DNA of 64,000 bases, from NCBI GenBank assembly GCA_030386875.1, contig CM059580.1, forward strand, positions 1,640,838 through 1,704,837, written 5' to 3'. Every line of letters starts with the position of its first letter. Within the stretch, counting starts at the first letter, position 1. The translations under genes were made by a program, and so were the position numbers. The stretch comes from Morinoia aosen. Taxonomy: Eukaryota > Arthropoda > Malacostraca > Amphipoda > Talitridae. Shown piece after piece: positions 7,595-64,000 of this stretch. The notes under the pieces are model-generated. The model ran no database searches. It was not told the origin of the DNA and was given only the letters and a program-made list of their open reading frames with translations.

Positions 7595-7710
7595 GACGCG
7601 GCGGCCTACATAGATGACCAGTGGGCTGACGACGAGGATGGGAAGCATGGCAGGCGGTCAGCCCAGCTGATGCGCCTCGTCAGCACTGACAAGATCGCTG
7701 ACAACCTCAG
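7595..7710 (+). CDS. Gene A exon 1 in window (stalk)
   Basis: Acceptor follows a C14 tract ending in CAG. It encodes an acidic stalk starting [12 protein letters not shown] and ending KIADNLR, the membrane-proximal helix before the PA domain. It ends in phase 2 at CTCAG|GTGAGG. The donor is the first copy of a 20-bp tandem repeat. Confidence 0.8.
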
Positions 7711-10700
7711 GTGAGGGCTGACAACCTCAGGTGAGGGCTGAAAATCTCAGGTGAGGGCTGAAAACCTCAGGTGAGGGCTGACAACCTTAGGTGAGGGCTG
7801 ACAACCTCAAGTGAGGGCTGACAGCTCCAGAAATAATCCTGTCATGGATGATATTTTTCTCCATTGTCCAATAATTGAATGCGTTCTAAAGCTTCGAACC
7901 GAATCTGAAACCTCGGAACTTTGATTAAATGTGGTCTAAAACTTGGAACTTTTATTAAATGCACTACCCGCATACCGCCAGAGAGCTGACGAAGGCCCCG
8001 CACCTGGCAGGGAGTGAGCGGGACGAGGAGTTGGCGGTGCTGCTGGAGCGGCGGTTCCGCCAGTACGGGTTTGACGAGGTCACCCGTCCTGCTAGGGAGT
8101 ACCTGCTGTCCCGCCCTGACCCTGAAAACCCTAATCTGGTGAGTCCTGACAACCCTAATTTGGCGGGTCTTGGCTCTGACAACCCCAATCTGGTGGGTCC
8201 TGACCCTGACAGCCTCCAATCTGGAGGGTCCTGACCCTGACAGCCTCCAATCTGGAGGGTCCTGATCCTGACAGCCTCCAATCTGGAGGGCCCTGTTCCT
8301 GACAACCCTAATCTGATGGGTTCTGACCCTGACAACCTCCAATCTGGTGGGTCCTGATCCTGACAGCCTCCAATCTGGAGGGTCCTGATCCTGACAGCCT
8401 CCAATCTGGAGGGTCCTGATCCTGACAACCCTAATCTGATGGGTTCTGACCCTGACAACCTCTAATCTGGTGGGTCCTGATCCTGAACACCCCAATTTGG
8501 GGTGTCCTGACCCTGACAACCCTGGTGGGTCCTGACCCTGGTAATCCCAATCTGGTGGGTCCTGACAACCCCTATCCCCTATCTAGTGGGTCCTGACCCT
8601 GACAACCCCAATCTGGTGGGCGTTGCCTCCCCATGGGTCTTGGGAAGTGAGAACTTTTGGAGATAATGAATGTGGTCACCGTGGCCGAGTGGTTAAGAGT
8701 GCGCCCTTCATGGGAAGTTGGCGGTTATTTGAACCCCGGCGCCGCGCGGTGATTTTTATATGTTGGGAAAAGGAAGAACCGGGCACAATTCCCCACTCTA
8801 CTCAGGTGTCAGAAATGGGTACCGGCTTGACCGGGGGTAACCGTCATGGCGTCCTGGTGTTAGTTATGAGGCTTTTGAAAAGCCCATTTGCAAGATGATG
8901 TGTATCGGGCTTGATTGATTGAAATAAAGCATCCATTTAAGAAAACAAGGGCATGACGCTCGCTGTGTTGCCACGCTCTGCCTGCCTGTGTGTTCGCCTC
9001 TCATGCCACTTGTGTTTGCCTGTCATTCCACGCAAAACCCGCCTCTCATGCCACTACCTTGATTTTTGACTAATACAGTGGTTCTTAACCTGGGTTAGAT
9101 CGAACCCCAGGGGTTCGGTGAGTCAGTTTCGGGGGTTCGGCAAATGATGCATGGTACAATTTCGGGGGTTCGGCAAATGATGCAGGGTTCGATGAATGTA
9201 TGTGTGGAACTTGTGGGGTTCAGTCCCTCCAGTAAGGTTAAGAACCTTTGGACTAGTTTAGTGTTAATGGAAGGGATAAAAGATAGAGTAATTATGCAGG
9301 GCTTGGTCTGTTTCTAGCGTTTGGAAACAGCATGATGTGCGCATTAATCTATTTTAACCCATTTACTTTACCCATGTTCCGAATATTACAACCTCTGTCA
9401 TTAGACTGGAGCTGGCACCAGGTTATCACCACCATCAGACAGAACTGCCCTCCAGCAAAAAGCTTCCACGAGCACATTACGGCGCAAATTCGGCGAAAAA
9501 AATAAATTGTGTTGGCATTTTTAGTGATTGTGCCTTATATGGCACGTCCGGCTGAAATGGGTTAAGATAATCGGTAGCGAGAACTTCGATTTGTGACTAG
9601 GTATCACGTTGAGCGAACTCTGGGTGATGACTACGCCAGTTTCGTTGGCGGCTCAATATTTCGAAGATGAGTACTGCCCTCACGTGCCTTCCCTCATGCC
9701 ACACTGCCTGCCCCTCATGCCACACTAACTGTGCTGATCATAACCCACTGCCCACGTCATGCCACACTCCCCATCTCTCATGCCACACTGCCCACCAGGT
9801 GAGGCTGCATGACGCCGACAACACGACAGTGTTCCAGTCAAACTTCAAGGAGGTGCCGCTGCATGAAGACGACGAGCATCCAAACTTCGTGCACGCCTTC
9901 AATGCGTACACTCCTAAAGGTAGGAATCCCGCGCCCCGCACCCGTCCTCATCCATGCAACACGTGTGTACACCACTGCTGTATGCACCCAACTCTTCGTA
10001 TGAGATGAGAGCAAGATGGAAACACCAACCTTTAACACTTTGACTGAGACGTGAACCACCGGTGGTACATTGAGGGAATTTTTACGATGCAGCTGTTCGA
10101 CCAGTAGTCACAAACTCAATTTTCATAAATACTCGATCAAAACTAAATGAATCAGTTTTGCGTGCAGCAGACAGTCTAAGTATAAGCTTTTCTACCTCCT
10201 GCAATGCTTGCCCTTATTTGCCTCCTGATCCGACATTCCCCCCTCCCTCCCCCTGCTACCCTAGCCCCCTAATATCCCCCTCTGACCCCCTTGCAGGGGA
10301 CGTGTGGTCGGCGGAGGGGGAAGGTGCGGTGTACGTCAACTACGGCCGCATGGAGGACTTCAGACGCCTGCAGGAGCTGGGGGTGTCTGTGGAGGGGCGC
10401 ATCGCCCTCATCAGATACGGCAAGATATTCCGCGGCAATAAGGTGGGCCGGGTGATGGGGTAACTAAGGTGAGCGAGCTCATGAGGTAATTCCGCGACTA
10501 CAATGGGGTAATTCCGCGGCAACAAGGTGAGCCAGGTGATGGGGTAATTCATGTGAGCCAAGTGATGGAGTAATTCCGTGGGAATAAGGTGAACTGAGCA
10601 AAGGGGAATTGGTCAAAACAGGTTTCCCTCTCATGATCTTTCCTCAGGGACGCGTCACGGATAAACCAATGCTGCTCAGCGCTGTGCATTGCCTGGGTTT

Positions 10701-11826
10701 GGGGTTTGGGTGTGGTCTCGTATTGATTAGGGCACAATGAAGCGTTGGTCTACCTTACACGTTTGGTGGCGTCTCTTCATTACCGCCTTTGCGGTCATGC
10801 AAAAGAAGAAAAAAGAAAGAAAAACCGTTTTTTTTCCAAAAAACAGTTGGTACATGAAATTTATTACAATACATTAAATTTTTTATAAAATCTGCTGCAA
10901 GCTCATAGTGCTCCACAGCGGAGTTTTGTGACTATCACCTTGAGTGAACGCTGGGTGGTGACTACGCCGGCTTCGTTGACGGCTTAGGATTTTGAAGATA
11001 ACACTGACCTCACACGCCCGACTCTTAGAGTCTGTTTAAAATTTATTGGTCCCCTTTGATTTGAGGTTTTAACCCTGCAAGGTGCACATTTTTGGCGGGA
11101 TAACACAACTTATAACAATTCGAACGGTCTGGCTTGAAGAATGATTTAAGCTAGAAACACCTACAGGGGAATGGGTGCACTTGACACCCTAAAGGGGCTT
11201 AGAAATACCTTCCCCTCGTCCCCCCCAAAATGACCCCTCGTCCCCCCAAAACGCCCCTTCGTCCCCCCAAAACGCCCCTTCGTCCCCCCCCCCAAATCGC
11301 CCCTTCGTCCCCCCCCCCCAAATGCCCCTTCGTCCCCCCCCCCCAAAACGCCCCTTCGTTCCCCACAAAACGCCCCTTTGTTCCCCCCCCAAAACGCCCC
11401 TTTGTTCCCCCCCAAAACGCCCCTTCGTCCCCCCCCCCAAATCGCCCCTTCGTCCCCCCCCCCAAATGCCCCTTCGTCCCCCCCCCCCAAAACGCCCCTT
11501 CGTTCCCCCCAAAACGCCCCTTCGTTCCCCCCAAAACGCCCCTTCGTTCCCTCCAAAACGCCCCTTCGTCCCCCTTCAAAACGACCCCTCGTCCCCCTTC
11601 AAAACGACCCCTCGTCCCCCCGAAACACCCCCTCGTCCCCCCAAAATTAATCCCCCGTGCCCCGCAGGTATCCCACGCTGCACAGTTCGGCGCGACGGGC
11701 GTGATCCTCTTCAGCGACCCGCAGGACGTGGCGCGTCAGGGGCAGCGTCCTGAGGACGTGTACCCCCACAGCATCTGGCTGCCGGGTGTGTGGTGTGTTG
11801 AAGTGTTCTGTGGTGTGTTAAAGTGT

Positions 11827-11869
<43 letters not shown>

Positions 11870-14224
11870 TGTTGTGTGGTGTGTAGTGAAGTGTGGTGCG
11901 TGGTGCTGGTGTGGTTGCAGAAAGCACTGCCACCCAAAGGCAGTGAATTATGTGAAAGAATCCCATGGAAACGGAGCGTAGAATCATGGTACTCACATAT
12001 ACACTCGGGTAGAACATAGAATCATGGTACTCACATGTACACTCGAGTAGAACATGGAATCAAGTTACTCTCATGTACAGAATGCGAGTCCCCGGGATGA
12101 GAGTATGCCCTCCCCCAGGCACGGGTATGCAGAGAGGTACCACCATGATGGGGAACGGCGACCCCCTCACCCCGGGGTGGCCCTCCACCGACACGGCACA
12201 TCGCATCCCGAAGGAGCAGGCGGGGTTACCATCCATCCCCGCACAGCCTATAGGATACGCCGACGCCAGGGAGATCCTAGAGTGAGTCAGTCGAGTCCTA
12301 GAGTGAGTCAGTCGAGTCCTAGAGTGAGTCAGTCGAGTCCTAGAGTGAGTCAGTCGAGTCCTAGAGTGAGTCAGTCGAGTCCTAGAGTGAGTCAGTCGAG
12401 TCCTAGAGTGAGTCAGTCGAGTCCTAGAGTGAGTCAGTCGAGTCCTAGAGTGAGTTAGTCGAGTCCTAGAGTGAGTCAGTCGAGTCCTAGAGTGAGTCAG
12501 TCGAGTCCTAGAGTGAGTCAGTCGAGTCCTAGAGTGAGTCAGTCGAGTCCTAGAGTGTGTCAGTCGAGTCCTAGAGTGAGTCAGTCGAGTCCTAGAGTGA
12601 GTCAGTCGAGTCCTAGAGTGAGTCAGTCGAGTCCTAGAGTGAGTCAGTCGAGTCCTAGAGTGAGTCAGTCGAGTCCTAGAGTGAGTCAGTCGAGTCCTAG
12701 AGTGAGTCAGTCGAGTCCTAGAGTGAGTCAGTCGAGTCCTAGAGTGAGTCAGTCGAGTCCTAGAGTGAGTCAGTCGAGTCCTAGAGTGAGTCAGTCGAGT
12801 CCTAGAGTGAGTCAGTCGAGTCCTAGAGTGAGTCAGTCGAGTCCTAGAGTGAGTCAGTCGAGTCCTAGAGTGAGTCAGTCGAGTCCTAGAGTGAGTCAGT
12901 CGAGTCCTAGAGTGAGTCAGTCGAGTCCTAGAGTGAGTCAGTCGAGTCTTAGAGTGAGTCAGTCGAGTCCTAGAGTGAGTCAGTCGAGTCCTAGAGTGAG
13001 TCAGTCGAGTCCTAGAGTGAGTCAGTCGAGTCCTAGAGTGAGTCAGTCGAGTCCTAGAGTGAGTCAGTCGAGTCCTAGAGTGAGTCAGTCGAGTCCTAGA
13101 GTGAGTCAGTCGAGTCCTAGAGTGAGTCAGTCGAGTCCTAGAGTGAGTCAGTCGAGTCCTAGAGTGAGTCAGTCGAGTCCTAGAGTGAGTCAGTCGAGTC
13201 CTAGAGTGAGTCAGTCGAGTCCTAGAGTGAGTCAGTCGAGTCCTAGAGTGAGTCAGTCGAGTCCTAGAGTGAGTCAGTCGAGTCCTAGAGTGAGTCAGTC
13301 GAGTCCTAGAGTGAGTCAGTCGAGTCTTAGAGTGAGTCAGTCGAGTCCTAGAGTGAGTCAGTCGAGTCCTAGAGTGAGTCAGTCGAGTCCTAGAGTGAGT
13401 CAGTCGAGTCCTAGAGTGAGTCAGTCGAGTCCTAGAGTGAGTCAGTCGAGTCCTAGAGTCCATAAGTTTCTGTATCAAGTATTCTACACAACACAGAAGA
13501 GCCTCTTGCTTTAGAAAGACCCTGGTTCGAGTCCTGCGACGGCATTATACTTTTGTAGAGTAGGCAGCATTTTGACGTCTGTCACCGAATGTACAGTACC
13601 ATTACGCTAATCATATTGTTCATCAGGCAACAACAAGCATATTCAAGAGAGTAGATTTCCTCTCAGTAACTGCGCGGATTGCCAGCTATAACTTTCTATT
13701 TAGAGTAACATTTGGGGTCAGCCCCCACTGGCGTATGGACCTTTAGACAAATGAGGGCGGGAAGCCTTAGTGGACTACTTAGGGTGGATTTCTTATACAA
13801 GTATTCCACTATGGCTTTACACCCTTAAATTTTAAACAATGTATGTGTTTGCAAGAAGCGATACAGTACTAAATTGTTTCTCAAGTTCTATCACAATGAT
13901 TACATTTGAGTATTGCACTTGTAATCCCAGGGGGACTATGTGAGGGCCCGAACTAAAGGTTAGGTAGGCTTCTTTTTATTGAAGTAGAATAGGTTTTTGT
14001 TCTGTTACGGACCATCTTTTTTCGGTTCACTACTATCCTGTTTTTCAGCACCTACTACTTTCTCCTTCAACTTTTTCTTGTTTCATGATCTTCTTTCTTA
14101 GCTTCCTGTTTCTGTGCACCTTGTGCATAGGTTCCGCGTTCCCTCAACTCCATACTAAATGGTGCCTTCCTTCTTCCTCTCTTGGAACATCTTTTGTCGT
14201 GGTAAATGGAAGCTAAAACTTTCT

Positions 14225-14267
<43 letters not shown>

Positions 14268-17200
14268 TAATAGCACTTGTGAACCCGACCTTACGTTTTG
14301 GTGGTTCCCACAGGAAGCTGGGGGGGCCCGTCGCCCCCGAGGACTGGCAGGGGGCGCTGGAGGGCGTCCAGTACAAACTGGGGCCCGAAATGGCCCCCGA
14401 GTTCTCCTCGCACCGCCTCCGCCTCACCTCCAACAACGAGGAGGTCATGGTCAAGTCGTACAATGTCATCGCCACCATCAGAGGCAACGTCGAGCCTGGT
14501 GAGGGGCTGGTGCCTTCTTCGTCCTCTCTTTGGGACACTGGGTGTGATCCTCTCATTGGTCCGCTGGGTGTGGTCCTATCATTGGTGTACTCTCATTGGT
14601 CCGCTGGGTGTGGTCCTATCATTGGTGTGCTCTCATTGGTCTGCTGGGTGGACCAATCTACATGGCCACACCACGCGCTATATAGCTACAGCACATCATG
14701 TATTTCCTACCTTCACCGTGTGATAAAATTTTGAAGCATTTCCTGAACGCTGGGCACTCCGCTAATGATTCAGAAACAAGTACACAGATACTCATATTGA
14801 AATAAACAGAAATCTAATACGTAAAATGAAAAAAGAACCTATATAAAAAGAAACTTTCTAGACACGGAGATGCTGAGGGACCAAAGTCGCTTGACTTCTT
14901 CTTCGAACAAAGGCAGTCTCTCATTGTTTTCGATGGTCTTTCACATCTTCAGACTCGTATCTTCCCTTCCTAGTCATATCCTCCAAACTATCCTTTTCCC
15001 CACCGTCAAATCCTCCTTATCACCCGCTCAAATCCTCCATATCCTCTTCCCCCCCGCAGACCGGTACGTGTTCGTGGGCAACCACCGGGACGCGTGGGGG
15101 TACGGGGCGAGTGACCCGTCCAGCGGCACCGCCCAGCTGCTGGAGACTGCCAGGATCCTGGGCCGTCTCGCGAAGAATGGTGAGGGGTGGCTGGTGAGGC
15201 AATGTGAGGGGCGGCCTTTAACTCTACAGTGAATGGTGACTTCCTCCTTCCTTTGGTATACCTTTACTGTGTCTAGGAAGCCCAGAACTAACCTACCTAA
15301 CCTAATCTAACCTAACCTAACCTAATCTAACCTAACCTAATCTAACCTAACCTAATCTAACCTAACCTAATCTAACCTAACCTAATCTAACCTAACCTAA
15401 TCTAATCTAACCTAACCTAATCTAACCTAACTGTTATACCTTAAAATACGCATCGTTTTAATGTGACACTGGTTTTGTGAGTAAGAGTTCCGGAAGCTGT
15501 TGTCACGCTCCGCATTTACGAGCGCCGGAAAGTCTTTGTTGCACTTTGCCTTACGAGCACCGGAAAATCTTTGTTATGCGCGCTAGCCTGACTTCCGGGC
15601 AAGACGATTATATGTATAGAGGAAACAGTAACCGACGAGAGGCAGTATACAGATCAGTGCGTAGCAGAGCGTTTCATTCTCCTGCCTTGGTAGTTTAAGG
15701 CAACTAACACTGTAGTTTGCGGCTACAGCTAAATCTACCTCATGATGTGTTGAAAGAAACTTCACAATACTAACCTAATCTAACCTAACTTAACCTAACC
15801 TAACTTAACCTAACCAAGCCTAACCTAACATAGCCTTACCTAACCAAGCCTTACCTAACCAAGCCTAACATGACTTAACCTAGCCAAGTCTAACTTACCT
15901 AATCTAACCAAGTCTAACTTGACATAACCTAGCCAAGTGTAACTTACCTAACCTAACCAAATCTAACTTAACCTAACCTAACTCACCTAACTTAGCCTGC
16001 CTGTCCCTCCCAGGCTGGAGGCCGCGCCGCACCCTCGTGTTCTGCTCGTGGGGGGCGGAGGAGTATGGCCTCATCGGGTCTACTGAGTGGGTCGAGGTGG
16101 GTGGTGGGTCGAGGTGCATGGGGGAGAAAATCGAGGAGGCTTTGATGGTGGAAAAAAGAAAAAAGAAAAACAGTTTTTTTCAAATTAAGATCGTTCAAAA
16201 AAGATAGTACCATCATTGGTTTTTAAAATATCCTAAAGTTTATACACTTCAATGATACACACACATGAGTATTGAAAGCAGGCAATGGGTGAATGAAGCT
16301 GTGAGCCAGTTGGCAGGAGGAGAAGTTGGGTGCCAGAGTGGGTCGGAGAGGTGGGAGGAGTGGATGCAGCCTGATCGCCACTGAGTGTGGCGAGGTGTAC
16401 CAGGTGAGCAGCGTGGCGTGTTGTCATGAACAGGCTGCAGTGCGTCACAGCTGCAGTGCGTTACAGCTGCAGTGCATTACAGCTGCTATGCCCACAGGAG
16501 CACGAGCTACAGCTGCAGCAGCGGGCCGTGGCCTACGTCAACACGGATACCTGCGCCTCAGGGCCTCACGTCCAGCTGAAGGCCTCGCCCCTCCTCTGGG
16601 GCCTCATCAGGGACGTCGCCGGCATGGTGAGGGGCTGGTGAGGGGCCTCGCCGGCGTGGTGAGGGGCTGGTGAGGGGGGTGTTTGGGTATGGGGGAGGGT
16701 TATGTGTACTTCTACAGAGTTAATGAGGGCGTCTAGATGCCGGGTGGTTAACCTCATCTCGTTAACGAGGAAGGATTACCCATTAGAGGGTGAGTTGTCG
16801 CTGTTGTGCTGTTGGGACCAGCTGTGGGGACCAGCTGTTGGGATCAGCTGTGGAGACAGCTGATGGGACCAGCTGCAGGGACCAGCAACGGGGACCAGCT
16901 GTAGGTAGGATCAATTCCCGTAACCCTCGTAACGCCCCCACAATACCTGCAACACCCCTGCAACACCCATGTAACCCCCCGTAACCTCCAGGTCCCGGGC
17001 GTGCTGGACTCCACCACCTCGCTGCTGCAGGAGTGGATAGAAAACGACAAGCTGAGGGAGCCCGAGGCACAGCAGTATCCTGTGTGAGTGCTGTGTGGTC
17101 TGTGTGAGTGAGCTGTTCGGCCTGTGGGAGTGTACTGTGTGGCCTGTGTGGGTGTGTTGTGTGGCCTGTGTGTGTGTTGTGTGGCCTGTGTGTGTGTTGT

Positions 17201-20200
17201 GTGGCCTGTGTGTGTGGTGTTGTGTGGTCTGTGTGAGTGTGCTGTGTGGCCTGTGTGAGTGTGCTGTGTGGCCTGTGTGGGTGTGTTGTGTGGCCTGTGT
17301 CACGGTACTATATGTGTGCAGCATGACGTCCAGTAATTCTGTGTGCAGCATGAGGACGCTGGGGTCCGGCAGTGACTACGCTGCTTTCCTCTTCTTCCTG
17401 GGCATCCCCTCCATGGATGTGTGGTTTCGGCGCGACCAGGTGCGTTCCCGTACGAATACCACGCACTAACTCGGCACCCCACGCCAACCAATTGCTCCGT
17501 CGTAACATTTATTCATTAAACTCAGCGTTAAACTAAGTGCTCGTATCCACGCTACAAGGTGTGGGCATAAAAAATCGTGAGGGTAGGGCGTGAGTTAACA
17601 AGACCTGATCTACTGATTTATTTCTCCAAATATTTGCTCTGCTGGGGAAGAAGGAGAATCATATAATTGTGCCAAAAGCCACGTGACGCGTTATGAGTCG
17701 CTTGTGAGTTTTATTCATTAGCTCTTCTTTGCTCCTATAAAACACACGTGTGTACTTGACAGCTTCTGCTGCTCATCATATTGTCTACGTTTGTCAGAGT
17801 CTCAGTTTTGACAAAGGTTGGCCTTTACGCGCGTTCACGCACGTAAAATTAGCCTATGGTAGCGTAACTGCTTGCAGTCTCGAAGTTGACAAAGATTGGC
17901 CTTTACGCGCGTACGCAAAATTTCACCTGAGATTGCCTTACTTTGGTTGCAGTCGGAGCACAAAGGCACGTATCCTAGCTACCACACGGGCTACGAGACG
18001 TACTTCATGGTGAGCAACAACACGGACCCAGGGTTCAAGGCCATCCAAGGTGGGTTACGCCTTCGTTTGTTTCATCATTATATACAAAAATATGTGCGCC
18101 TGTGACCTTTAAACATGTTATTATCTTCTGACTAAATCTTGAATATCTTTGTGTTTTTGTTTATGTTAGTTGTAACTTAAATTTAGACGTTTAATTATCT
18201 TGAATTTGATGTTCTTTTCTATTTTTGAACTCGTAAGACTGTCATCTATTTCAACAAACAACATTCAAATTGAATACATGCGAACTAGGAGAGGGGAAAT
18301 CATAACCTTGCGGTAGAAGAGTAGTCCGTTTTTTAAATTGAAGTGAAGATAAAATGCAATCTCTTCGTTTTGTCTGGTACAATTCCCGTCAGAAGTGAAG
18401 ATATAATGCAATCTTTTTGTTTTGTCTGGTACAATTCCCGTCAGAAGTGAAGATAAAATGCAATCTCTTCGTTTTGTCTGGTACAATTCCCGTCAGAAGT
18501 GAAGATATAATGCAATCTCTTCGTTTTGTCTGGTACAATTCCCGTCAGAAGTGAAGATATAATGCAATCTTTTTGTTTTGTCTGGTACAATTCCCGTCAG
18601 AAGTGAAGATATAATGCAATCTCTTCGTTTTGTCTGGTACAATTCCCGTCAGAAGTAAAGATAAAATGCAATCTCTTCGTTTTGTCTGGTACAATTCCCG
18701 TCAGAAGTAAAGATAAAATGCAATCTCTTCGTTTTGTCTGGTACAATTCCCGTCAGAAGTAAAGATAAAATGCAATCTCTTCGTTTTGTCTGGTACAATT
18801 CCCGTCAGAAGTGAAGATATAATGCAATCTTTTTGTTTTGTCTGGTACAATTCCCGTCAGAAGTAAAGATAAAATGCAATCTCTTCGTTTTGTCTGGTAC
18901 AATTCCCGTCAGAAGTAAAGATAAAATGCAATCTCTTCGTTTTGTCTGGTACAATTCCCGTCAGAAGTGAAGATATAATGCAATCTTTTTGTTTTGTCTG
19001 GTACAATTCCCGTCAGAAGTAAAGATAAAATGCAATCTCTTCGTTTTGTCTGGTACAATTCCCGTCAGAAGTGAAGATATAATGCAATCTTTTTGTTTTG
19101 TCTGGTACAATTCCCGTCAGAAGTAAAGATAAAATGCAATCTTTTTGTTTTGTCTGGTACAATTCCCGTCAGAAGTAAAGATAAAATGCAATCTCTTCGT
19201 TTTGTCTGGTACAATTCCCGTCAGAAGTAAAGATAAAATGCAATCTCTTCGTTTTGTCTGGTACAATTCCCGTCACACCGGCAGGCTGCAGTCGCCTGGC
19301 GCTGATATCCCTGAAGAGGCTCGCAGACTCGCGCGTGCTGCCTTTCTCCATCTCGGACTTCCCTCGCGCCATGAAGAAGGCCCTCGACACCTTCCAGGAG
19401 AAGGGCAAGGCGGACATTCTGTCCCGCATCTACCCCAAGTACAGTAAGTGTGTAAATGGGTTGGGGGGGTTGCGGCAGAAGAAACAAGGTAGGGTCAAAC
19501 CAGTTTTTTTCCGTCGATCGTCTGGCAATGCTGTCATCATGGCAACGAACCAATAGCAGCGCTCATATTGCATCTGCTAGCACTGCTACCCCCCAAATCT
19601 GGCTCCACTATTGGCCTAACGAAATGGCGTTTTGGTGACGTCACAAAATTTGTTTGAAATAAAGCCTTTCTATTGGCTGTGCGAAGAAGAGGAGGTGTAT
19701 TTTCTCCCATAGAAATGACCCTACCTGGAGCTAGTGGAGCCAGATTTGGGGGGTAGCAGTGCTACCAGACGCAATATGAGCGCTGCTATTGGTTCGTTGC
19801 CGTGACGTCAGCAAAACCACACCGTCAACGAAAAAAAAGACTAATTTGACCCTACCTTGTTTCCTCTACCGTGGCTTGTACACGCGTTCACACGCGTAAA
19901 ATTAACCAAAGATTGCCTAACTTTGAATCCAGTTTCAGTGTTGACAAAGGTTATCCTTTACGCGCGTCCACGCACGCAAAATTAACGTGCGTACTTTTTA
20001 TTTCTTCATGTTTTTTATTTTTTTATTTCATTACCTGACGTACATCAAACCGTGCCCCCAGAGCACCTGGTGACGGCGGTGGAGGAGCTGCAGGCCGCCA
20101 CGGAGAGGTTTGAGGAGGCCGTGCTGCAGAGGGGCAAGGAGAAGATGATGTGAGTTAGGGAGGCGCTCGGCACTCTATCTATGGGCCTCATACGAGGGGA

Positions 20201-23200
20201 ATATGGCTTATTCGGTCATGATATTCAATGTAAAACTGAATGGAAGCTGCGATAATACTTTGTTATGAAATTTTTATCGAGTGATATTCTAAAAATTATA
20301 CCATCGTTATCAGAAAAATAAAAAAGAACCATTGCAGTAAACTATGTCGTGCCTCATATGCTGCACTGTGAAGTGTTCAACATCAAAATCCGTTCAAAAA
20401 TGTGCAAACTGGAAATTTCGTATCACGACTTCTACTGTTTTAAATTAAAAGCTGTGAGCGTTTCAGTATTACTACAGGGAGAGGGGGGGGGGGGGCGGTG
20501 ACAATAGGAAAGAAGAGAAGAGAATTAGAGTTTGCACAGGGTGGGCCATAAGAGAAAAAGGAGGAGAGAAAAGGAAAGGGATAGTGGGAGAAAAAAAAAA
20601 GGCGCATAACGCATAATTAGTTGATCTTGTGCATCTTGTTCAATTGATACTACTAATTTGTTAATTCAATGGGGGAAAATACCCGTCAGGGCTTTTTATG
20701 CTAAAAAATGATTCGTCTATTTAATTATGCCGCTTCTACTCTGCTCTATTGTGATTATTTTTTTCAGTGGGAAGGCGGTAAAAGCTCTCGGCAAGCAATC
20801 TAAATTTTAAATGGGATAAATTTATGCTCATCTACAAGTCCCTATCTACAATATACCTACATAATTATACATATATAATATAATTTTTTTTTTTTTTTAC
20901 ATATGCATTTATACACATTTTACATTTATATACACACACACACCCGACATATGCACTCGTGCCTTTTTTCAGAATTTCACACACCCGATACACAGGCATA
21001 CATATGAGTATATAAAAATATGTTAAAATTTTTGTTTTATCATACATACCTATATATACATTATCACCCATACACACGACACATGAGCACACAATGGTTA
21101 TATACGTTCCATACCCTTATACCCACAACCCACGCACACACACGCACACGAATTGCATGCACACCAATATGCATATATACATTTTTTTTATTTATTTTTT
21201 ATTTTTTTCTTATTTTTTTTTATTTTTTTTACTTTTTATTTTTATTTTTTTATTATTTTTTTTTTATTGATTTTTTTATTTTTTTTTATACTATTTACAT
21301 ACATCCTAACTATCTAAACAATTACACTTATCTACCTACACAGTAAGCCTTATCTAAAATTTCATACTTTGTTACTGAAATATGACTTAGGCCTATCTAG
21401 TTTTTGATCTAAGTATATACAATCTAATATCTACACATTTACATCACCTAGCGGCTATAATTGGAGAATCCGTTATTACTTATTTACTATCTTACTCACA
21501 TTACCTACATTACATCCTAGCTATCTAAACAATTACACTTTTCTTACCTACACAGTAAGCAGTACCTAAAAATTCATTTTTTGTTACTGAACTATGACTT
21601 AGGCCTATCTAGTTATTGATCTACGAGTATTTACAATCTAATATCTACACATTTGCATCACTTATCGCCTTTTATCGGACAATAAGTTTTTACTTATTTA
21701 CTATCTTATTTACGAGTGTTGTCTATTCTCTACAGTGCGCGAGCACATTATGTTGCATTACCTTCGACCTACCATATATATCTACATATAAATATATATA
21801 CATTTCAAGTTACTTATTTTTATCTACCTATTTACAATTATAGCGTCTGTGCACATCGTGCATTATATACACCTAGATACAGTTTTGCAGACATGCACTT
21901 TACACTACGTACATCTTTACAAGTTGGCTATTAAGTAATTTGAGGTGTAAGTAAATAAGAATTTAAGAAATTTTACAGTAATGAAAAATAATTAATGAAA
22001 AGAAGAGTTTTTGTGTATGTCAATGCAACTGAAATGAAGTTAAAAGTCTGGGGTTTTGGCTTCCCACCCATGGGGGGGAAGACCGTCCTACCGCTCGCCA
22101 AAACCCCAGAAAACAAAAAATAAAAATATTAATGAAATTAATTTGGTCTTCCCCCACGTCCTCATAACAGGACTGGAATTTGTCTTAGTAGGTCTGCCTG
22201 GCAAGATTGTTGGTTCATGTATATTTCGGAGGTGGAGGGGGGGCCAATGCAAGTAGTCTAGAGCTTTTAAATCGGGAATGTTGATTGGGGATGAGCTCCG
22301 GAGGAAAACTTAATTTTGTGTACAGGTCAGGATCGAATTGCTGTATGTTGTGCCAGATCCTGTTTGCATGCTCGTGCAGCAGTATGTTTATGGGAGGGAT
22401 ATTTAGATGATTGTGCAGGTGTTGTGATGGTACTGCTTCTATTAAACTAGTGCCGGTAATAAATCTAAGTGCTTTGTTTTGAACTCTTTGTAATTTGGAT
22501 ATTGCTGTTGCTGATGCTGTGTGTAAAGGTATGACTGGGTAAATTAATGCTGATCTTACAAAGGCCATGTATAATTTCAGTTTGGTTTCTGTAGGAAGGT
22601 AAGTAAAACGGTAAATTTTTTCTAGATTCTTGTAGGCTATTGCTTGTCTAATGGAGGCTTGTGATGATATACCATGTGTAGTTATGTTCAACCCCAGGAC
22701 TTTTCCTTTATTTGTGTATGGTATTGATTTGCCGTTTATGGTAACTTCAAATGTTTTCCTTCTATTTATGGGGATTATTGCAAATTTGCTACTGTTGGTT
22801 AATATTTTCCATTTACTTTCAAATGTGTTTATTTGTTCTATTGCTCTTTTGGTATTGGCTGTTGCATATTTTGGTGAATATTTTCCGGCTGTTATCTGTG
22901 TGATGTCATCTGCAAAGCATATGTAGTCTGTTTTAGGTAGCGGCGGTGGTAAATCATGGGTATAGAAGCTAAACAGTGTAGGGGATAAGCATGCTCCTTG
23001 GGGTACACCTGTGCACAGTGAGAATCGCGGTCCTAAGTAATTGGATATTCTTATTGAGGCTGTCCTGCCATTGAGGTAACTATTCAGGGTCCGGAGAAAT
23101 ATAGGGTGAAGATTAATTTGCTAAAGTTTGAAGATGAGACCAGAGTGCCATACCTTATCGAATGCTTTTTTAACATCTCTTAAGCAAATGTCTATTGTGA

Positions 23201-26200
23201 ATTTTTGAGCTAATTGGATGGAAATTGATTCGTGAAGGGTTGCCAGTGCGGTGTGAGTGCCTCTATTACATCTGAATCCGTGTTGTCTGCAATTAAAATG
23301 GTTATGAATTGTAAGGAAATTTGTTAATCTATTATTTAAAATTTTATCTAGTAATTTGCCGTGTACATCCAGGAGGGAAATTGGTCTGTAATTTTGAACT
23401 GATTTTAGGGATGTGTTTGGTTTTGGGAGGAAAATCATTATGGCGTGTTTTAGACTGTTCGGGAAGTAACCAGCAGATATGGACATATTGAAAATGTAAA
23501 TCAGAAAGTGAATCATGTTTTCTGGTAAGTTTTTAAGTTGTAAAGTGGTTATTTCCGTTGTCCCTGGTGCTTTCTGTTTGAACGTTCTCAGTGATTGTAA
23601 TAGTTCTTCGAATGTAATAGGGGGAAAATGTATAGGGTCCAGTCTGTTGATATTTCCCGTTCGGTATGGTTTGATTGTATTTGCTAAGTTGATCATTTGC
23701 TCTTGTACCGTTTCAATGTGTTCCTTGTCGAAGAGGGGATCGTCCTTTTCAGTGAATATTTCCTTCCAGTGTGCTCTGAAGATGGGTTCTTTTTCTTTAG
23801 GAGTATGTAACTGTTCTTTACTATGTTCTATGTATGGTATTTGTTGTTTAGTGTTACCGCCCATCATCCTCTTGCAGGAGGACCAAAACATTTTCGGATC
23901 CTCCTGCAGTTTGAGACTGTGAATTAATTCCTCCCAGGTTTGCTGATATTTGCCTTTGTATATATCTTGTAATCGGATTCTTATTGCGTTCAAATGTCGG
24001 TTCAAATCTATAGATGGCCCGTATCTGGAGATGTATTGAGTTGTCTGTCGGTATTGTGCTTGTAATGTCAAAGTTTCGTGAGTTGGTTTGATCCCCGGGA
24101 TTATTCTGTGATTTATGAGTGGAACGGCTGTATTTGTGGCATCCTGTACGTGTTTGGTCCATGTGCCTAGGTACTTGTTTATTTCGTTTATAGTTGGATC
24201 CGGTTGTAAAGGGGGTGTGACAGGTGATAGTAACTGTTTATATAAATTCCAATTTGCTTTACGAAAGTGTCTTCGCGGTTTGATGGGAATTTGTATTGGG
24301 TTGGCTGTGATGGTAGCGATTATTGGAATGTGATCCGAAGGTGTGATGGGGCCAGGCTTCAAGAAAATATTATGAAATGCATGCTTGTTTTGTAAAACTA
24401 CATCGGGTGAGGTGGTGCTATTGTGAGTTATTAGGGTGCGAAAAAAGGGTCCAATGTGAGTGCATTTCTGCTTTGAGATTAGGTAGAAAAGATGATTTCC
24501 TCTATTTTTCCTATGTGAGTATCCAGTTATGCTATGTGCGGCGTTTATGTCACCTAGAAAATAGGTTGGATGCGGTCTATTGAAAAGCATGTGGAAGTCT
24601 ATAAAATTCAGGTAGTCTGTTCTCGGAGGTGTATATGTAGTACCTATGGTGATTGGTCCCTGTAGCGTATCTATTGTTACTGCTAACATGTCTGTGTGGA
24701 AATCATCGTGAAGTCTGTACGAAATGCTTTTCCTGAGTGCTATTGCAGTGCCTGCGTGGTTTTCGTTTTGCTTATTTGAATAAAATGTATTGTAATTAAA
24801 GATCTTAAGGGGCTGGTTATTTATGAGGCAGTGACTATTGATAAGTATTATGTCTGGGTCCAGTGAGTTGTATATGTTGGATAGTGTGATTCTATTTGTA
24901 TTCCAAGATTGCACGTTATGTTGAATTATTGTTACTTTCTTTAGGTTCATTTTTAAGCAATTAATTTTTTTGGTTTTTTGGTGGCTGCTATTATTGACTG
25001 GTGTCTTGGAAGATTTATGAAGTCCTCATGGGGGATTATGTTTATTTTTGTTCTTGTGAATTGGACCCTGTTACTCTTGATGTAATCCAGTAATGTTTGT
25101 GATCTTATGTCCTGAACTGTGAATTTTAATCCTTTATCATTTTCTTGTCTGCTGAGTTCCCGGATGTACCATTCTATTGGGGGATTTTCTGGGATTGGTG
25201 AATTGTCTATGAAGTTTCTGTACAGTTTCATTTGAAAGTTGTGTTTGTTATCTAATACTATGCTTGAATTACCCAAATCATCACTTATCCTTCGTTTAGT
25301 TCCAGCCTCCGTGTCCATAGCCTCCTCCATCTGTTCCTGCTCACATTCCAGAGAGACATCCACCGTTTTTTTCTGTTCCGTTTCCGTCTCCTGTGGTATT
25401 GTTTCTGATTTGTAGTAAAAGTTGAAAATTGCGGCTGAGTCACGATCTGGGAAAGTAGTATCGATATTGAAGTTCAGTTTTAAAGATTGTGAAAGAAGTT
25501 CGCCAAATTTCTGTGTTCTGTTCAGTGCTGCTATGTGTGCTTCCAAGATGAGTGCTGTCAGTTTAATATGTGTTTGTGATGTTAGTGTGAGGGTGTGTTC
25601 TGGGGGGTTTGTTTGTAATATTGCCGGCTTTGCAATTTCAGCATAGGTGTTTTGAGTTTGTTGGTGATGCTCCTGTTTTTCATTTTCGATTTTTTGTTTG
25701 ATTACATTTTTCCTATGCGGGCAACTTGATGCTAATGTTCTGTGGTGTGGTCCATTGCAATTGAGGCATTGTTTAAGTGTGCTTGTGCATTGTTGGTAAG
25801 TATGTTCTTGTGAAGAGCATTCTGAGCAATATTGTGTTGTTTGGGTGCATTTGGATGTTGGGTGGTCTTCATATTTATAGCACTTGTAACAGATGAGGAT
25901 GTGTGTGTATTTTTCTTGTTCACATTGATAGGGTGTAATTTTTGTATGATACATATAAAACCCATCTCGGAGGATCCTCTGTGCAGTGGTGGTGTCGGAA
26001 GTTATAATTTTGATTAGATGAGTGTATTGCTTTATTTCAACTATTTCTGTGACTGATAACCATGAATTTTGCTGTTGGATTTCTGATTTGATTTCATCGG
26101 CAGGTCTTGCACCTATTTCATTATCAATTTGTCTGACAAAAATGGATCTTTTTGCTCTTCGGTCGGGGGGAATAACTGGTATTATATTCAATTTTTGGAA

Positions 26201-45387: not shown

Positions 45388-48300
45388 GTAAGTGAGCTTA
45401 ATAGAATTAAAAGGGCAAATTTTTGGAAATCTAATATGTAAAATGAAAAGAAGAAGCAATATAAAAGGAAATATTCTTTTAATTGCATACGTTTTGGAAT
45501 CTCCAATTTAATCATCAGTGTTGTTAAACGAAGAAAAAATTGCAATGAACAAATTGCAAGATTAATTCTTTGCCTGTAATGTATGCCACTGGTGGCCACA
45601 GAGGGAACTTTCATGATGCTGCTGACCAACCAGTATTCACAAACTCAATTTTCATAAATGCTTAAAGCTAAATGAACGCATGATCCTGTTAATGTTTATT
45701 TTCAAAATTTCTTCTTACAATTGCCTTTGAATTTGAGTTGAATATTGAACTTGAATCAATTGCTGTCTAAGTTTTGGGGTGTGTGAATCTCATCTTTCTA
45801 CATCACGCTTATTTCTTGGCAGAAAGTTTAGTGTTGGCTAAGTATGGGAGAAGTTAAACACTTATTTTGGTGTTTTCCAAGTGTGAACATGTCGCCAGTG
45901 TACACAGCCTGTCAAAAATGACAGTATTGGATATTTTACTCATAAATTTTCCCTGATGTGGATGCCCAACAAATATATCCATCCCAACAATACATATACA
46001 TAAATACATATACCGGGCTTATCCTCCCTATGGGAGGGTAGCCGACAGCAGGCCACAATCACCACACTTAGTCACTAGGAGGCGAGAGAGGCAGCACTGG
46101 CCGCACCTGAACTGCCAGGATCAGCAGCAGCCCAGCACAACCACCTTCCACAGTCAGGCCCGACAGCCACAGCTGGTTTACCCCAACCGCTTCATTGAGT
46201 GCAGCCCCTCCCCCCGCACATGACAGGTCAACCCCATCACACGCGGGCAGCTTCCAGTAACGCGTCAAAAAATAAAATTACCTCCTTATACACTGCCCCC
46301 GCTCACTTCTGTCCGCAGCCATCCCTCTCGCCACGTCCACAGTCAGACCCCTCTCATACAAAGCACGTCGCACCCCATCCATCCAACTCATCCGTGGTCT
46401 ACCTCGCGCTCAAAGACCACTCACTTCCGACATATATATCTTTTTCACCAGCCGCTCAACATTCATTCTTTCAACATGCCCAAACCATCCAAGCACTCTT
46501 TCATCCACTCGCCTGCTCAACTTTTTGATAACACCCGTCTGCCCCCTAACCAACTCATTCCTGATCCTATCTCTTCTAGTTGCTCCATACATGCTCCTCA
46601 AACACTTCATCTCAAACACATCCAACTTCCTTCTCTCAGCTGCTCTCAACCCCCAGGACTCTGCTCCATACAACAAAACTGGCACAATCAAACTTTCATA
46701 CAGTCCCCTCTTAGCATTCATACTCAAACTCCTGCATTCAAAAACTTTCCTCATTGCACTCAATGTCTTACAACCTTCACTCACTCGATGCTTCACTTCT
46801 ACTTCCATCTATCCTTAAGTCACCTCCGACCCGAGGTACCTAAAATGTTCTACCTCCTCTAAAACTTCCCCATTCAACCTCACATCCAAAGTTCCAAACA
46901 CTCCACCTCTTGAACATCTCATCACCTTACTTTTATTCACATTTACCCTTAATTTCCGCCTTTCGCACACTCTACCAAACTCTGCAACCAGTCTCCTCAG
47001 TTTTTCCTCTGAATCAGCCACAAGCGCTGTATCATCTGCAAACAATAGCTGACACACTTCCCAATACATACCATTTCGTCCCACCAACTGCGCACCTTTT
47101 CCCAACACTCTGGCATTCACTTCTCTCACCACACCATCCATAAACAAATTAAACAACCACGGCGACATCACACATCCCTGTCTCACACCTGTCACAACTA
47201 AGAACCATTCACTCACCTCATTCCCTACTCTCACACATGCTCTGCTATCAATGTAGAAACTCTTGATCGCATTCAACAGTCTCCCACCCACTCCATACAA
47301 ACTTACCACTAGCCTCGCGATCCACTCTGTCATACGCCTTCTCTAGATCCATAAATGCCCAATATACATCCTTTCCCTTTAATAAGTATTTTTCATTCAC
47401 CTGCCTCACAGCAAACATTTGATCCACACAACCTCTACCACACCTAAAACCACACTGTTCTTCAGCAAGCACACGATCCGTCAACACTCTCACTCTTCCA
47501 ATTAACACTCTTCCACACAGCTTCCCAACAACACTCAGTAGACTTATACCCCTAGAATTACTGCACTCATACCTGTCACCTTTCCCCTTGTACAACGGAA
47601 CTACGCACGCGCTACTCCAATCATCCTGCACTTTACTAGCTTCGAAACACACATTTAATAAACGCACCAACCATTCTATAACCACATTTCCTCCTTTCTA
47701 TAGACATTCAACCGTGCAGCCATCCAAACCTGGAGCTTTCCCGTTTTTCATTTCATCCAACGCACATCTCACCTCTGCACTTCTTATTCGACTTCTATTC
47801 ACTTCACCAAACAGAAGCATTCTAACATCACTTCTAACAGCTACTACTCTCGCAATCTATCATCCCTCACGTTCAGCAGTTCCTCAAAATACTCCGCCCA
47901 TCTCTTTCTCACATCACAACTCTCCACTAGCAGCCTACCATTTGTATCCATCTGGCTTCACTTCCAACACTACAACTTCACTTCACTTCCAACAGTACCC
48001 GCCATTAAATAAATCCTCCAGATGTGGATGCCCAACAAATATATCCATCCCAACAGTACCCACCATTAAATAAATCCTCCAGATGTGGATGCCCAACAAA
48101 TATATCCATCCCAACAGTACCCGCCATTAAATAAATCCTCCAGATGTGGATGCCCAACAAATATATCCATCCCAACAGTGCCCGCCATTAAAATATTCCT
48201 GCACTTGTGCACTGGTGAAACTCGTATCACAGATACGGTCATTGCGCGTCCTTCAAGATCATATAAAAGAAGCTGTATCACCAAACATGTTTAAGTTGGC

Positions 48301-48996
48301 AAGATTGGTCAACATAATGTAGAGTGCATAAAAATATAAATTTATAAATGAATGTGCATACTGAAAGCATTATCAGGTAAGATGGATGAATAAAATGATG
48401 GATAGATTTATTTAGAAATAAATGATTATTCATTATACAAAAACATATAATAATATTCTTTAAACAGAAATATAACATCATTAATGCAGGAATATAATAT
48501 TATTAACCCTAAAACACTAACCTATTTTTTGAGCATAGCGTACACAGTGCAAATGATACCCATGTTTAGCATTCTAGGATTATACAGAAATATGCTATTA
48601 TTATTAATACAGAAATATAATATTCTTTATACATAAATATAATATTCTTTATACAGAAACATATTATTCTTTGCATAGAACAATAGAACATAGATTGACA
48701 CAATGTACGGTCCGCAGCACCAGGAGAAGATGTTCTTGCCGAGCGTGTGTGGGGCCCTGGACGAGGGGCCGCTGCGCCAGATGCTGCTGGCCCACCTCGG
48801 CCCCATCAGCAGCAAGACGAACATCGTGCCCCAGCTCAGGGGCGGCAGGACCACCAATGAGAAGCTTCATTTCTACCTGGGGTGGGTGTATATGTACTCT
48901 TGCTCTCAGTGAAGTAAACGTTGATAGTTGGGAGCGCACCTTGTGCATAGATTCGGCTCTCCCTTGGCTCCATTATATGAGGTGCACTTGGGGGTG

Positions 48997-49031
<35 letters not shown>

Positions 49032-49699
49032 GGTGCGCCAGAGAAACTCACTTATTTGAAAGGTCAATAAAAGCAAAAGTACTGCAGTTATTGTTTTATT
49101 GTCTTTTTTATTTGATAATACAATATCCCAATTTTGTTTTACACTGTTTTGAAAATGACATCGGCTAAATGGCGACCCCCATTGCGCATACACTGATTAA
49201 GTCGATTTTTGAAGTGCGTGTCCACTCTTTGCAGCATATCAATCGGTATGTTGGCAATGGCATCGCGAATGTTGTTTTTGAGGTGAGCTATTGTCCGTGG
49301 TCGATCGACATAAACCAGCGATTTCAAATAACCCCATAAAAAGAAATTGCGTGGAGCCAAATCTCAAAGTTTGAACGGTGATGGGATTCCATGTGATGGA
49401 TAGTTTACTTCAAAAATCGACTTAATCAGTGTATGCGCAATGGGGGTCGCCATTTAGCCAATGTCATTTTCAAAACAGTGTAAAACAAAATTGGGATATT
49501 GTATTCTCAAATAAAAAAGACAATAAAACAATAACTGCAGTACTTTTGCTTTTATTGACCTTTCAAATAAGTAAGTTTCTCTGGCGCACCCTGTATATAT
49601 ACTCATGTTTTCAGTGGAGTAAATGTTGGTAGTTGGGAGCACACCTTGTGCATAGATTCTGTGTTCCCTTGACCCTATAATATAAGGTCTACTTGGGGG

Positions 49700-49730
<31 letters not shown>

Positions 49731-58700: not shown

Positions 58701-61700
58701 AACATAAACAAAAATAAATGATGGGATAATAAAAATATAAACAAATGATGCCACGCCTCATGAGGCAGGTGATACCATGTGAGGCTGGGTACGCAGGTAC
58801 GAGCGGGACCGAGGCGGGCTGGGCGAGGCTGAGCGCGAGGCGCGTGGCCACTACGAGGAGCAGCGGAGGAGGCGGGTGGAGGCGGAGCTGGCCGAGTGGG
58901 AGGAGGCGGAGCGGAGGCAGCTCAAGGCAGAGCTCGAGGAGGAGATGGAGGCTGAGCGCGAGGCTAAGAGGCTCGGCAGGCATGGGGTGAGGCTTATGGA
59001 GGGGGTGAGGCGGGGAGAGGGTTATGGACGGGGTGAGGCAGGGGGAGGGTTATGGATGGGGTTGTGTAGGTGATGGTGGAGTCCTTGCTTATGTTTATAA
59101 TAGTATTGTATGCATGTATAGTCGTATGTGATTGAAATGAAAACCAGCTATCCCTCGTTTATCGCGGTTGGTCGTATAACTGAATTTCCGCGAAGTAGGG
59201 AGGGAACACTATAGTCATACATATATGATGGAGGTGGAAGAGATACATGTAGAGCTCTATGTATGTAGTGGAAATTATCCAGTGAATACCTTCAGTCTAT
59301 TTTGTGAGGGTGCTGCTGCCCCACAGGCCCCCATATGCGTCTCAAAAAGAAATGAATAAATATATGAATGAATATTTCTGCACCGCTTGAGCTCGTGGGT
59401 CAGATTGGAAAAGTCTGATACTGATTATATATAGTTACCTTCGGTTTCGATATGGTCTGAGTAACTTAAGTGCTAGCAAAACCATGTTATTAGTTGTGGT
59501 GTCGTTTCTTCTCAACACAACATGGGGTTTAGTTAGCTGTAGCTGCAACTACAGTTTTCGTAGCCTTAAACTTCGAAGAGAGGAGAAATGATCCGCTCTG
59601 CAACGTTCTTATTATTATACTGCTTTCCGTTGGTCACAGCTTCCTCTAAAAGCTACTGCGCAACAAAAACTTTCCGGCTGGCAGAGCATTTTCGGCCCAC
59701 GGAGCGTGACAGAGACATCCAAAACCAAGCGCTATAAAGACATCCGGCGACGCTCACAATACAAGGCACGTTTTGAGATAAAACATTAGTACTACTCTTA
59801 ACTGCTCTCTCCCGCAGCCTCCCATTGTGTATGTGGGGAACGTGTGTCCTGTGAGCAACGAAGCGAGGCTCCACCGCCACTTCTCCCTCTACGGCACCGT
59901 CACCAAGGTGGTCATCATCAGGTGGGTGTAGTGAGGTGTATGGTGGTGCTGCACGGTGGTGGTGAGGTGTATGGTGGTGCTGCACGGTGGTGGTAGTGAG
60001 TTCTAGTGCTGCGTGGTGGTGGTAGTGAGATCTGGTGCTGCGTGGTGGTGGTGAGGTGTGATGTGGTGAGGTGTATGGTGGTGCTGCACGGTGGTGGTAG
60101 TAAGGTCTGGTGCTGCGTGGTGGTGGTGGTGAGATCTGGTGCTGCGTGGTGGTGGTGAGGTGTGATGTGGTGAGGTGTATGGTGGTGCTGCACGGTGGTG
60201 GTAGTAAGGTCTGGTGCTGCGTGGTGGTGGTGGTGAGATCTGGTGCTGCGTGGTGGTGGTGAGGTGTGATGTGGTGAGGTGTATGGTGGTGCTGCACGGT
60301 GGTGGTAGTAAGGTCTGGTGCTGCGTGGTGGTGGTGTGAGATCTGGTGCTGCGTGGCAGTGGTGAGGTGTGATGTGGTGAGGTGTATGGTGGTGCTGCAC
60401 GGTGGTGGTAGTAAGGTCTGGTGCTGCGTGGTGGGTGGTGCTGTGCTGTGTGGTGTGGTGGGTGGTGGTGCTGCGTGGTTTGTGGTGAGGTCTGGTGCTG
60501 CGTGGTGGGTGGTGAGGTCTGGTGCTGCGTGGTGGTGGTGTTTGATGGGTGGTGGTTTGGTGTGGGTAGTAGTGTGATGGTTGTATGTGTTGCATGGTGG
60601 GAGTGTCCACTACACCCTGACGTGTGTGTGGTGAGCTTACTGGTAGCGGTATGTGTGTTGCCTGCAGTACATGTAAAGCATGTAGTACACCTGACGTACA
60701 CACACAGTACATTTAGTACCAAATACCATGCAGGACGCGCCAGAAGAACGTGCTGAGTGCCGAGGTCCACTTCGAGAAGTGGGCGCACTGCAACCGGGCC
60801 GTGCGAGCCATCCCTGGCGCCCATGTGGTGAGTGGGACCCTCTGGGGGAGGGGATAGTTCGAAAGTCTTGCCTTTTGTGTTTCCTGGATCCTGTAGTGGG
60901 GGGGGGGGGGGTCCCATAGTCCTGCCCATGTTTGTCTAGTGAACTTTCTTCCTCTTCTTGACGGCGTCATTCTCTTCAGTCTCATGTAGTCCTCCGTTTG
61001 TGGGTCAATAGTCATGTTGTGTTACTGAGTCGCCTTGGTGGCCGCTAGTTGTCTTACGAGCTGCACGCAGCTCGGGTTCCCCTTACATCTCTTTTAATGA
61101 ACGACAATGTTACTTCCATTTTGTGGGTAAATATTGAGAGTTGCATTACTCAAGTTGGACATGCTAGCTTTGTTTCGAGTGCCCTTTTGATTGTCTTTGT
61201 ACGCGAGTGCTGGGCTTAGAAGCGCTTTCTGTGCTGCTCATAAGCTGTTGTGAGTCTTGAGGGTGAGCTGAGGTGATGGGTGATACACCTACCTACACCT
61301 ACATCTCTTCCTCAACACTCCCACTGTTTACACTCCCCCAACCCACACTCCCTCAACACACCCCGATGCCGTGTGCAGGTGGACGGCTACACGCTGCGTG
61401 TGGGCCACGAGCGGCCCCAGCTGGTGTCCGCCATCACCCGCATGGACGAGTTCAAAATCGAGCGCAAGCCCGAGAGCTTCGACGAGATCCTCCTCAAGTA
61501 CAAGCTCCAGACGGAGATCAAGCAGGGGCGCAGTGGGGGACCCGCCCCCCAGCGGCGCCCGGGGGGGGACGCCCCCTGGAAGGACCGGCACCCCCTTCGG
61601 GGGGAGGCAGCGTCGCGTGATGTGTTCATCACGGCCGTTGTGCCCCCCACCCCCGGGATACATCGGTCCGTGGACCCCAGTGACCCACGGGGGAAGGACG

Positions 61701-64000: not shown

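Follow-up and report, generated by a model that had tools for sequence, protein, structure and literature searches.

Tandem arrays that span exon borders and pile up at exon edges in the genome of the amphipod Morinoia aosen

Tandem arrays in introns of the amphipod Morinoia aosen have their edges close to exons about three times as often as expected: among 80 intronic arrays from 14 genes, 32 begin or end no more than 25 bp from a splice junction, where three placement nulls predict 9-11. The phenomenon is real, it is spread over unrelated genes of the genome, and it is not peculiar to the window in which it was noticed. The window is the whole stretch of DNA that was analysed, 64 kb at contig C25, positions 1640838-1704837, in a genome of 1.99 Gb and 29 contigs; TRF reports 103 array rows within it. 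We think that the arrays are probably junction-spanning minisatellites of the kind called mirages, that is, local tandem duplications tolerated near coding DNA, together with a real excess of arrays close to exon edges.

The pattern is clearest in gene A of the window, which is a homologue of NAALADase, or glutamate carboxypeptidase II (GCPII). Its exon borders were taken from a splice-aware alignment of protein to DNA, with the human GCPII sequence as the query. The human protein aligns over 16 exons from position 7989 onwards with a score of 972, with GT donors and AG acceptors; the upstream exon 7595-7710 was placed by eye, and the stop codon ends at 29452. Independent confirmation of this identity came from PDB, searched with 461 aa of joined exon sequence: the best match was 3fec, glutamate carboxypeptidase III (E 2.9e-113), and the next top matches were NAALADase-like protein and GCPII. 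Pfam was silent for the two exons tried (61 and 27 aa). The relevant features of gene A are as follows, in window coordinates.

7595-29452, forward strand: gene A, NAALADase/glutamate carboxypeptidase II homologue (peptidase M28 kind), from protein alignment and PDB search
7697-7823, forward strand: 20-bp array, 6.3 copies, whose unit is the last 14 bp of exon 7595-7710 plus the donor gtgagg (TRF)
8115-8620, forward strand: 31/61/92-bp array from 24 bp inside exon 7989-8138, unit with donor-like CTGGTGGGT (TRF)
10427-10474, forward strand: junction of exon 10297-10442 (16 exon and 32 intron bp), copied 84 bp downstream with 42/48 matches; no TRF array
11212-11642, forward strand: 22-bp array ending 25 bp before the intron end 11667, next exon 11668-11785 (TRF)
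12275-13459, forward strand: 21-bp array of 56 copies, whose unit is the end of exon 12119-12281 plus the donor, GA followed by GTGAGT (TRF)
15770-15991, forward strand: degenerate array of CTAAC type (TTAGG) ending 22 bp before the intron end 16013, next exon 16014-16096
16087-16104, forward strand: junction of exon 16014-16096 (10 and 8 bp), copied 17 bp downstream with 16/18 matches; no TRF array
16609-16677, forward strand: 32-bp array from 18 bp inside exon 16498-16626 (TRF)
17079-17300, forward strand: 22-bp GT-rich array from 5 bp inside exon 16992-17083 (TRF)
18340-19275, forward strand: 52-bp array of 18 copies ending 9 bp before the intron end 19284, next exon 19285-19443 (TRF)
29424-30449, forward strand: 37-bp array from the last codons of gene A, first unit holding the TGA stop (TRF rows 29424-29818 and 29488-30449)

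An earlier note on this DNA, made from the letters alone, had claimed that the ends of exons 1, 2, 4, 6, 9, 10 and 11 of gene A each start a tandem repeat containing terminal exon bases and the donor. The same seven ends emerged when the 16-mer across each junction was searched for copies (at least 13/16 matches within 200 bp), which were present at 7 of the 16 donors and absent at donors 9919, 11785, 14498, 15179, 17439, 18049, 19443, 20149 and 28506. A tandem array proper, as reported by TRF, exists at exons 1, 2, 6, 10 and 11, and exons 4 and 9 have junction copies only. These five TRF arrays begin 5 to 24 bp inside the exons ending at 7710, 8138, 12281, 16626 and 17083, with the donor included in the unit. 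The copy is close at exon end 7710 (100/107 identical), it matches 14/16 at exon end 8138, and CCTAGAGTGAGT occurs in 53 exact copies by count in the array at 12275-13459. Arrays said to end near acceptors do so, with gaps of 25, 22 and 9 bp to the intron ends 11667, 16013 and 19284; those of CTAAC type correspond to TTAGG, the arthropod telomere motif. The further array proposed at the stop codon region was likewise recovered, its unit holding the last codons and TGA, with a 15/16 copy around the stop. Reading through past the donor meets a stop at +1, +1, +12 and +1 in the four donor arrays of gene A that were checked. Upstream of gene A, at 5849-6275 of the window, lies a 43-bp array of 9.9 copies with an acceptor-like CGACAG and a donor-like CCGGTGAGT in each unit; it is near no known exon.

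Gene B, the second gene for which such arrays had been claimed, is a putative gene, less secure than gene A and only partly confirmed. None of seven of its pieces gave a Pfam match above the cut-off (four had no match and three only matches below it). Two of its exon ends had been said to start arrays: exon 58797-58986 does, and exon 48718-48881 has no TRF array, only one imperfect copy about 110 bp on, seen by eye. On the acceptor side the proposed distances fit putative acceptors near 52262 and 63184, the models of gene B themselves being predicted. A further array, absent from the earlier note, lies just past a possible donor.

58984-59062, forward strand: 28-bp array at the putative gene B exon end 58986 (TRF, sequence)
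59931-60540, forward strand: GGT-rich array about 9 bp past a possible gene B donor, CATCATCAG followed by gtgggt, at about 59922 (TRF, sequence)

The window holds other repeated elements. The minus strand at 23121-25022 carries a non-LTR retrotransposon, in which Pfam recognizes an endonuclease and a reverse transcriptase domain, flanked by open frames, recognized by eye, that extend over 22215-26617. Arrays of a 61-bp unit occur at 1592-2692 and 47989-48192, 46 kb apart and on opposite strands; they are probably part of a mobile element, and one of them adjoins reverse transcriptase-like frames identified by eye.

Because the window itself had raised the idea, we turned to 14 conserved genes elsewhere in the genome: PGI, MUT, GLDC, MTR, PYG, ACO1, CLTC, RPB2, V-ATPase A, ACLY, KPNB1, EF2, VCP and VARS. 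They were found with E. coli or human proteins, were picked before their arrays were inspected, and lie on 12 contigs. Coverage is partial for VCP, EF2, RPB2, CLTC, ACLY, KPNB1, VARS, GLDC and some others; the longer of two alignments was used for VARS, and SERCA and UBA1 were located and left out of the sample. A filter on the identity of the flanking exons kept 122 of 131 introns, the 9 dropped having weak flanking exons, as did the 5 of 16 introns discarded in gene A. Arrays were counted as merged TRF arrays lying at least half inside an intron, with periods under 8 excluded, which gave n=80. Several nulls were run, and the p values quoted are uncorrected.

Additionally, some other features of the genome were noticed. 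In contig C27 at 55.0-72.8 Mb and in parts of C26 there are many intronless genes of bacterial type, with several divergent copies per E. coli query at 27-78% identity; this bacterial DNA probably represents contaminants or symbionts. Exon matches of identical score appeared twice, about 0.9-1.1 Mb apart, at C8:43.43-43.46 and 44.33-44.35 Mb and at C1:30.26 and 31.34 Mb, which we read as segmental or false haplotypic duplication. The hemocyanin family (PF00372) has 17 matches in this genome and none in 14 control genomes, which together with the CTAAC-type arrays marks the genome as arthropod, and it includes tandem clusters with long open frames at C13:64.80-64.90 Mb (10 matches) and C23:9.01-9.06 Mb (5 matches).

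The idea that arrays respect exon borders beyond chance, for which a comparison of array edges with shuffled positions had been proposed, was borne out in the 14 genes. The 32 arrays that begin or end no more than 25 bp from a junction compare with 10.5 expected under uniform placement with an overlap of 25 bp allowed (p 1e-4, the lowest value that 10,000 shuffles can give), with 9.25 under a tolerance-only null that allows an overlap of one unit (p 2e-4, likewise the lowest for 5000), and with 11.1 when interspersed repeats found by all-against-all BLAST are masked (p 3e-4). The p value of the tolerance-only null was unchanged at each of six TRF threshold settings. Although metH (MTR) supplies 31 of the 80 arrays, the result holds without it, and under the null with 25 bp of overlap p for the pooled count stays at or below 0.0004 when any one of the five array-richest genes, MTR, MUT, VARS, ACO1 and RPB2, is dropped in turn. 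The excess is found in introns of 700-1300 bp (16 observed, 4.1 expected) and in longer ones (10 and 2.9); introns under 700 bp, with 11 arrays, gave 6 against 4.1, which is not significant. At donors, array starts have a density of 2.62/kb in the 25 bp before the junction and likewise in the 25 bp after it, so that they are as dense just inside the intron as just inside the exon; deeper in the intron the density falls to 1.31/kb at 25-100 bp and to 0.16-0.52/kb between 100 and 1600 bp. Array ends at acceptors mirror this, at 2.95, 1.97, 1.64, 0.66 and then, between 100 and 1600 bp, 0.22-0.54/kb. Measured simply as coverage, duplications are no more frequent at junctions than in the deep intron (16 of 99 donors, gene A included, versus 13%), so that a coverage test misses an effect which edge density shows. 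What is unusual is that coverage does not fall off as the exon is approached, which requires array edges to pile up there. Arrays at edges, with 82% identity, are not clearly distinct from those in the interior, with 85% (p 0.13).

Straddling arrays, whose unit takes in exon bases, number 8 at donors and 9 at acceptors among the 122 introns and 80 arrays, in 9 of the 14 genes; counting either an array or a 16-mer copy, 10 of the 14 genes are affected. The expectation under the tolerance-only null is 4.5 at donors (p 0.08) and 4.45 at acceptors (p 0.03). With fixed overlaps of 20, 30 and 50 bp allowed, 2.1, 3.0 and 4.6 are expected per side, and p ranges from 0.001 to 0.09 at donors and from 0.0004 to 0.04 at acceptors, the least favorable case being 50 bp (8 versus 4.6, p 0.09; 9 versus 4.6, p 0.04). 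Straddling as such is thus only about twice the tolerance-only expectation and borderline. None of the 17 straddling arrays spans both ends of its intron.

A test independent of TRF used the 16-mer made of 8 exon and 8 intron bases and accepted copies with at least 13/16 matches within 150 bp (downstream at donors). The donor 16-mer is copied in 15 of 122 introns, versus 0.08% in comparisons across introns, and 11 of 106 donors with no TRF array within 25 bp still have such a copy. At acceptors the 16-mer is copied in 8 of 120 introns, versus 0.06% across introns, and in 3 of 104 without arrays. Copies below the TRF level are present at 10% of donors versus 1.2% of interior positions, and at 2.7% of acceptors versus 1.3%. 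This richness at donors may point to a donor component, or else copies next to conserved exon bases may stay detectable for longer. The copied exon portion measures 63 bp at GLDC intron 6, 46 bp at ACO1 intron 14, 41 bp at VCP intron 2 and 38 bp at MUT intron 2. Two clusters of offsets stand out among the junction copies, one of about 59-67 bp in CLTC, RPB2, KPNB1, VCP and a single MTR intron, the other of about 108-110 bp in MUT and GLDC. Helical periodicity (10.5 bp) of unit lengths was not significant (p 0.40 for 230 arrays; 0.05 for units of 26-110 bp).

Exon edges without an intron are affected as well. CLTC, one of seven sampled C-termini, has an array that begins 23 bp before the stop codon with a unit of 113 bp, gene A has the array described above, and in MTR an array starts 39 bp after the stop codon; 5 of the 8 C-terminal ends (seven sampled genes and gene A) have no array near the stop. 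Splicing is not required, because arrays occur at the stop codons of CLTC and gene A. In 23 junction duplications, with core splice motifs excluded, the exonic part has diverged by 11.5% (50/434) and the intronic part by 16.8% (64/381) (p 0.03), the mismatches at the three codon positions of the exonic part being 16/144, 10/143 and 24/147. The lower divergence of the exonic part fits selection on one copy only. Nonsense decay is no general safeguard, because in eight donor arrays of genes other than gene A the read-through stop lies 21 to 707 bp on.

What places array edges at exons can be considered from several sides. Selection that removes arrays only when they disturb the exon, one of two causes put forward in the earlier note, fits the tolerance seen at edges; it fails to explain the pile-up alone, because the roughly threefold excess persists under the tolerance and masking nulls. 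A fuller version of this reading, in which births are uniform and purifying selection together with slower loss of sequence beside exons does everything, holds that deletions cannot run into exons and that an old duplication remains recognizable in its exon half. The twofold level of straddling, the stronger enrichment of degenerate junction copies than of well-formed arrays at donors, and the lower divergence of the exon half, which keeps it visible longer, all agree with it, and the edge hugging (32 versus 9.25 under the tolerance null) does not. In a simple survival model with deletions of 100, 300 or 1000 bp, a ratio of at least 3 (3- to 5-fold) needs no fewer than 5 hits per detection time with 1-kb deletions, or about 20 with 300-bp ones. 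At such strong deletion pressure the median interior array would have passed through only 3-14% of its detectable life and its copies would be near-identical, whereas actual interior arrays have a median identity of 85% (IQR 81-92); interspersed repeats, moreover, make up only 1-20% of intron sequence. We therefore consider survival without any birth bias unlikely. Young transposons filling the middles of introns were rejected as too scarce at that 1-20%, in a within-sample comparison that rarer families would escape. The other cause put forward earlier, a mutational process linked to junctions through their splicing or transcription (R-loops, co-transcriptional structures; GT-rich donor flanks can be added to these), is in keeping with the G/T-rich 5' ends of introns (G 0.29 and T 0.35 in the first 25 bp), with GT-rich donor arrays at acnA intron 3, metH intron 18, VCP intron 1 and gene A exon 11, and with the commoner sub-TRF copies at donors. 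However, TRF arrays are found at acceptors as often as at donors (9 versus 8 of 122), and the affected stop codons mean that the process is not confined to junctions; a cause specific to splice junctions is thus not upheld, and we regard this reading as rather improbable.

Function of the repeated splice sites, as back-up sites, in U1 binding or in splicing strength, could be read from the way the copies retain the donor motif (gene A intron 6 has 53 exact copies, and GGTGAG is present 36 times in metH intron 6), but homogenization preserves any motif in long arrays, the true acceptor would face competition from its upstream copies, arrays at stop codons would have no such use, and both the exonic and the intronic parts of extra copies drift; selection for function is very improbable. 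Hardly any weight falls to the possibility that the arrays are relics of intron gain through tandem duplication of an exon segment bearing AGGT, a route proposed for amphioxus globins (PMC3087553) and reported for a potato gene (PMC4974935), since it predicts homology at both intron ends, which 0 of the 17 straddling arrays reach, and the stop-codon arrays have no intron. An artefact of the gene models or of the assembly has to be considered because the borders come from protein alignment, and the bacterial-type DNA in C26 and C27 points to an imperfect assembly. The aligner itself imposes GT/GC donors and AG acceptors, and consensus splice sites are for this reason no independent proof. Yet protein homology on both sides of every kept intron fixes the borders, and the effect is present in 10 of 14 genes (the 14 are spread over 12 contigs) and under six TRF threshold settings, so that an artefact seems scarcely credible.

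We therefore return to the reading of junction-spanning minisatellites. Short tandem duplications of about 20-150 bp would arise frequently in and near exons. One that straddles an exon edge would be tolerated if one copy stays intact and in place, which at an acceptor means the last copy and at donors and stop codons the first, and mid-exon duplications would be lost; the data bear out part of this step. Surplus copies would be non-functional and would drift as intron or 3'UTR while the exon copy remains under purifying selection, as the divergence figures support, and some arrays may then grow to dozens of units through ordinary minisatellite turnover. An intact first copy would be the basis of normal splicing. 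Tolerance does not account for everything: in the roughly 100 bp next to exon edges, array edges are in genuine excess. Donors and acceptors behave alike, and stop codons are affected too; therefore this is a coding-edge or exon-centred effect and not one of splicing function. Judging from array positions and identities, an excess of births near exons is more likely than survival to be its source, because survival alone needs very young interior arrays, contradicted by their identities. It is possible, and we put it forward tentatively, that exons here are centres of tandem-duplication birth, where a local mutational process other than splicing stutters the DNA and selection leaves the arrays that hug the edges. 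If so, mirages would be a signature of exon-centred mutation bias that crosses phyla, and they would keep supplying duplicated splice sites and stop regions. The roughly threefold excess within 25 bp of a junction constrains any theory of minisatellite birth, and whether tandem duplication is exon-centred becomes answerable with annotation and long reads. On this scale, duplicates of splice sites and stop regions also provide material from which exon borders can shift, and they can mislead gene prediction.

The earlier note knew of no described class of this kind, but one has been named. According to PMC3087553 and PMC3902484, mirages are minisatellites across exon-intron boundaries in the amphioxus genes Adh3 and the globins BflGb6 and BflGb9, and they leave splicing undisturbed; PMC3902484 adds PGBD5 and troponin C (TnC). 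In M. aosen the unit spans the boundary at seven ends of gene A and in 17 of 80 arrays, both 5' and 3' boundaries are involved, and 10 of 14 genes are affected. The class is thus already known, and new here are the arthropod case, the measured positional excess and the edges at stop codons; amphioxus-type mirages are not a lancelet oddity. No arthropod mirage was found in the titles and abstract openings of the open-access papers searched, which is no proof of absence elsewhere. As in amphioxus, the unit consists of an exon end plus the splice site and measures 10 to about 160 bp, both boundaries and several genes per genome are affected, and copies drift. Unlike the amphioxus cases, those described here are in an arthropod genome, known from the DNA of one assembly, and their counts in 14 genes were compared with nulls; arrays that lie just inside introns show an equal over-representation, and stop-codon edges are affected. 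Intron gain by tandem genomic duplication, which is reported for the potato RdRp gene (PMC4974935) and whose concept PMC3087553 credits to Rogers, shares with the present arrays a tandem duplication across AG/GT sequence, whereas the present arrays adjoin only one end of an intron that already exists and imply no new intron. Ordinary intronic minisatellites (VNTRs) resemble them in being head-to-tail, with units of about 10-150 bp and degenerate copies; the arrays of M. aosen differ in their non-uniform placement, with edges that pile up at exon borders.
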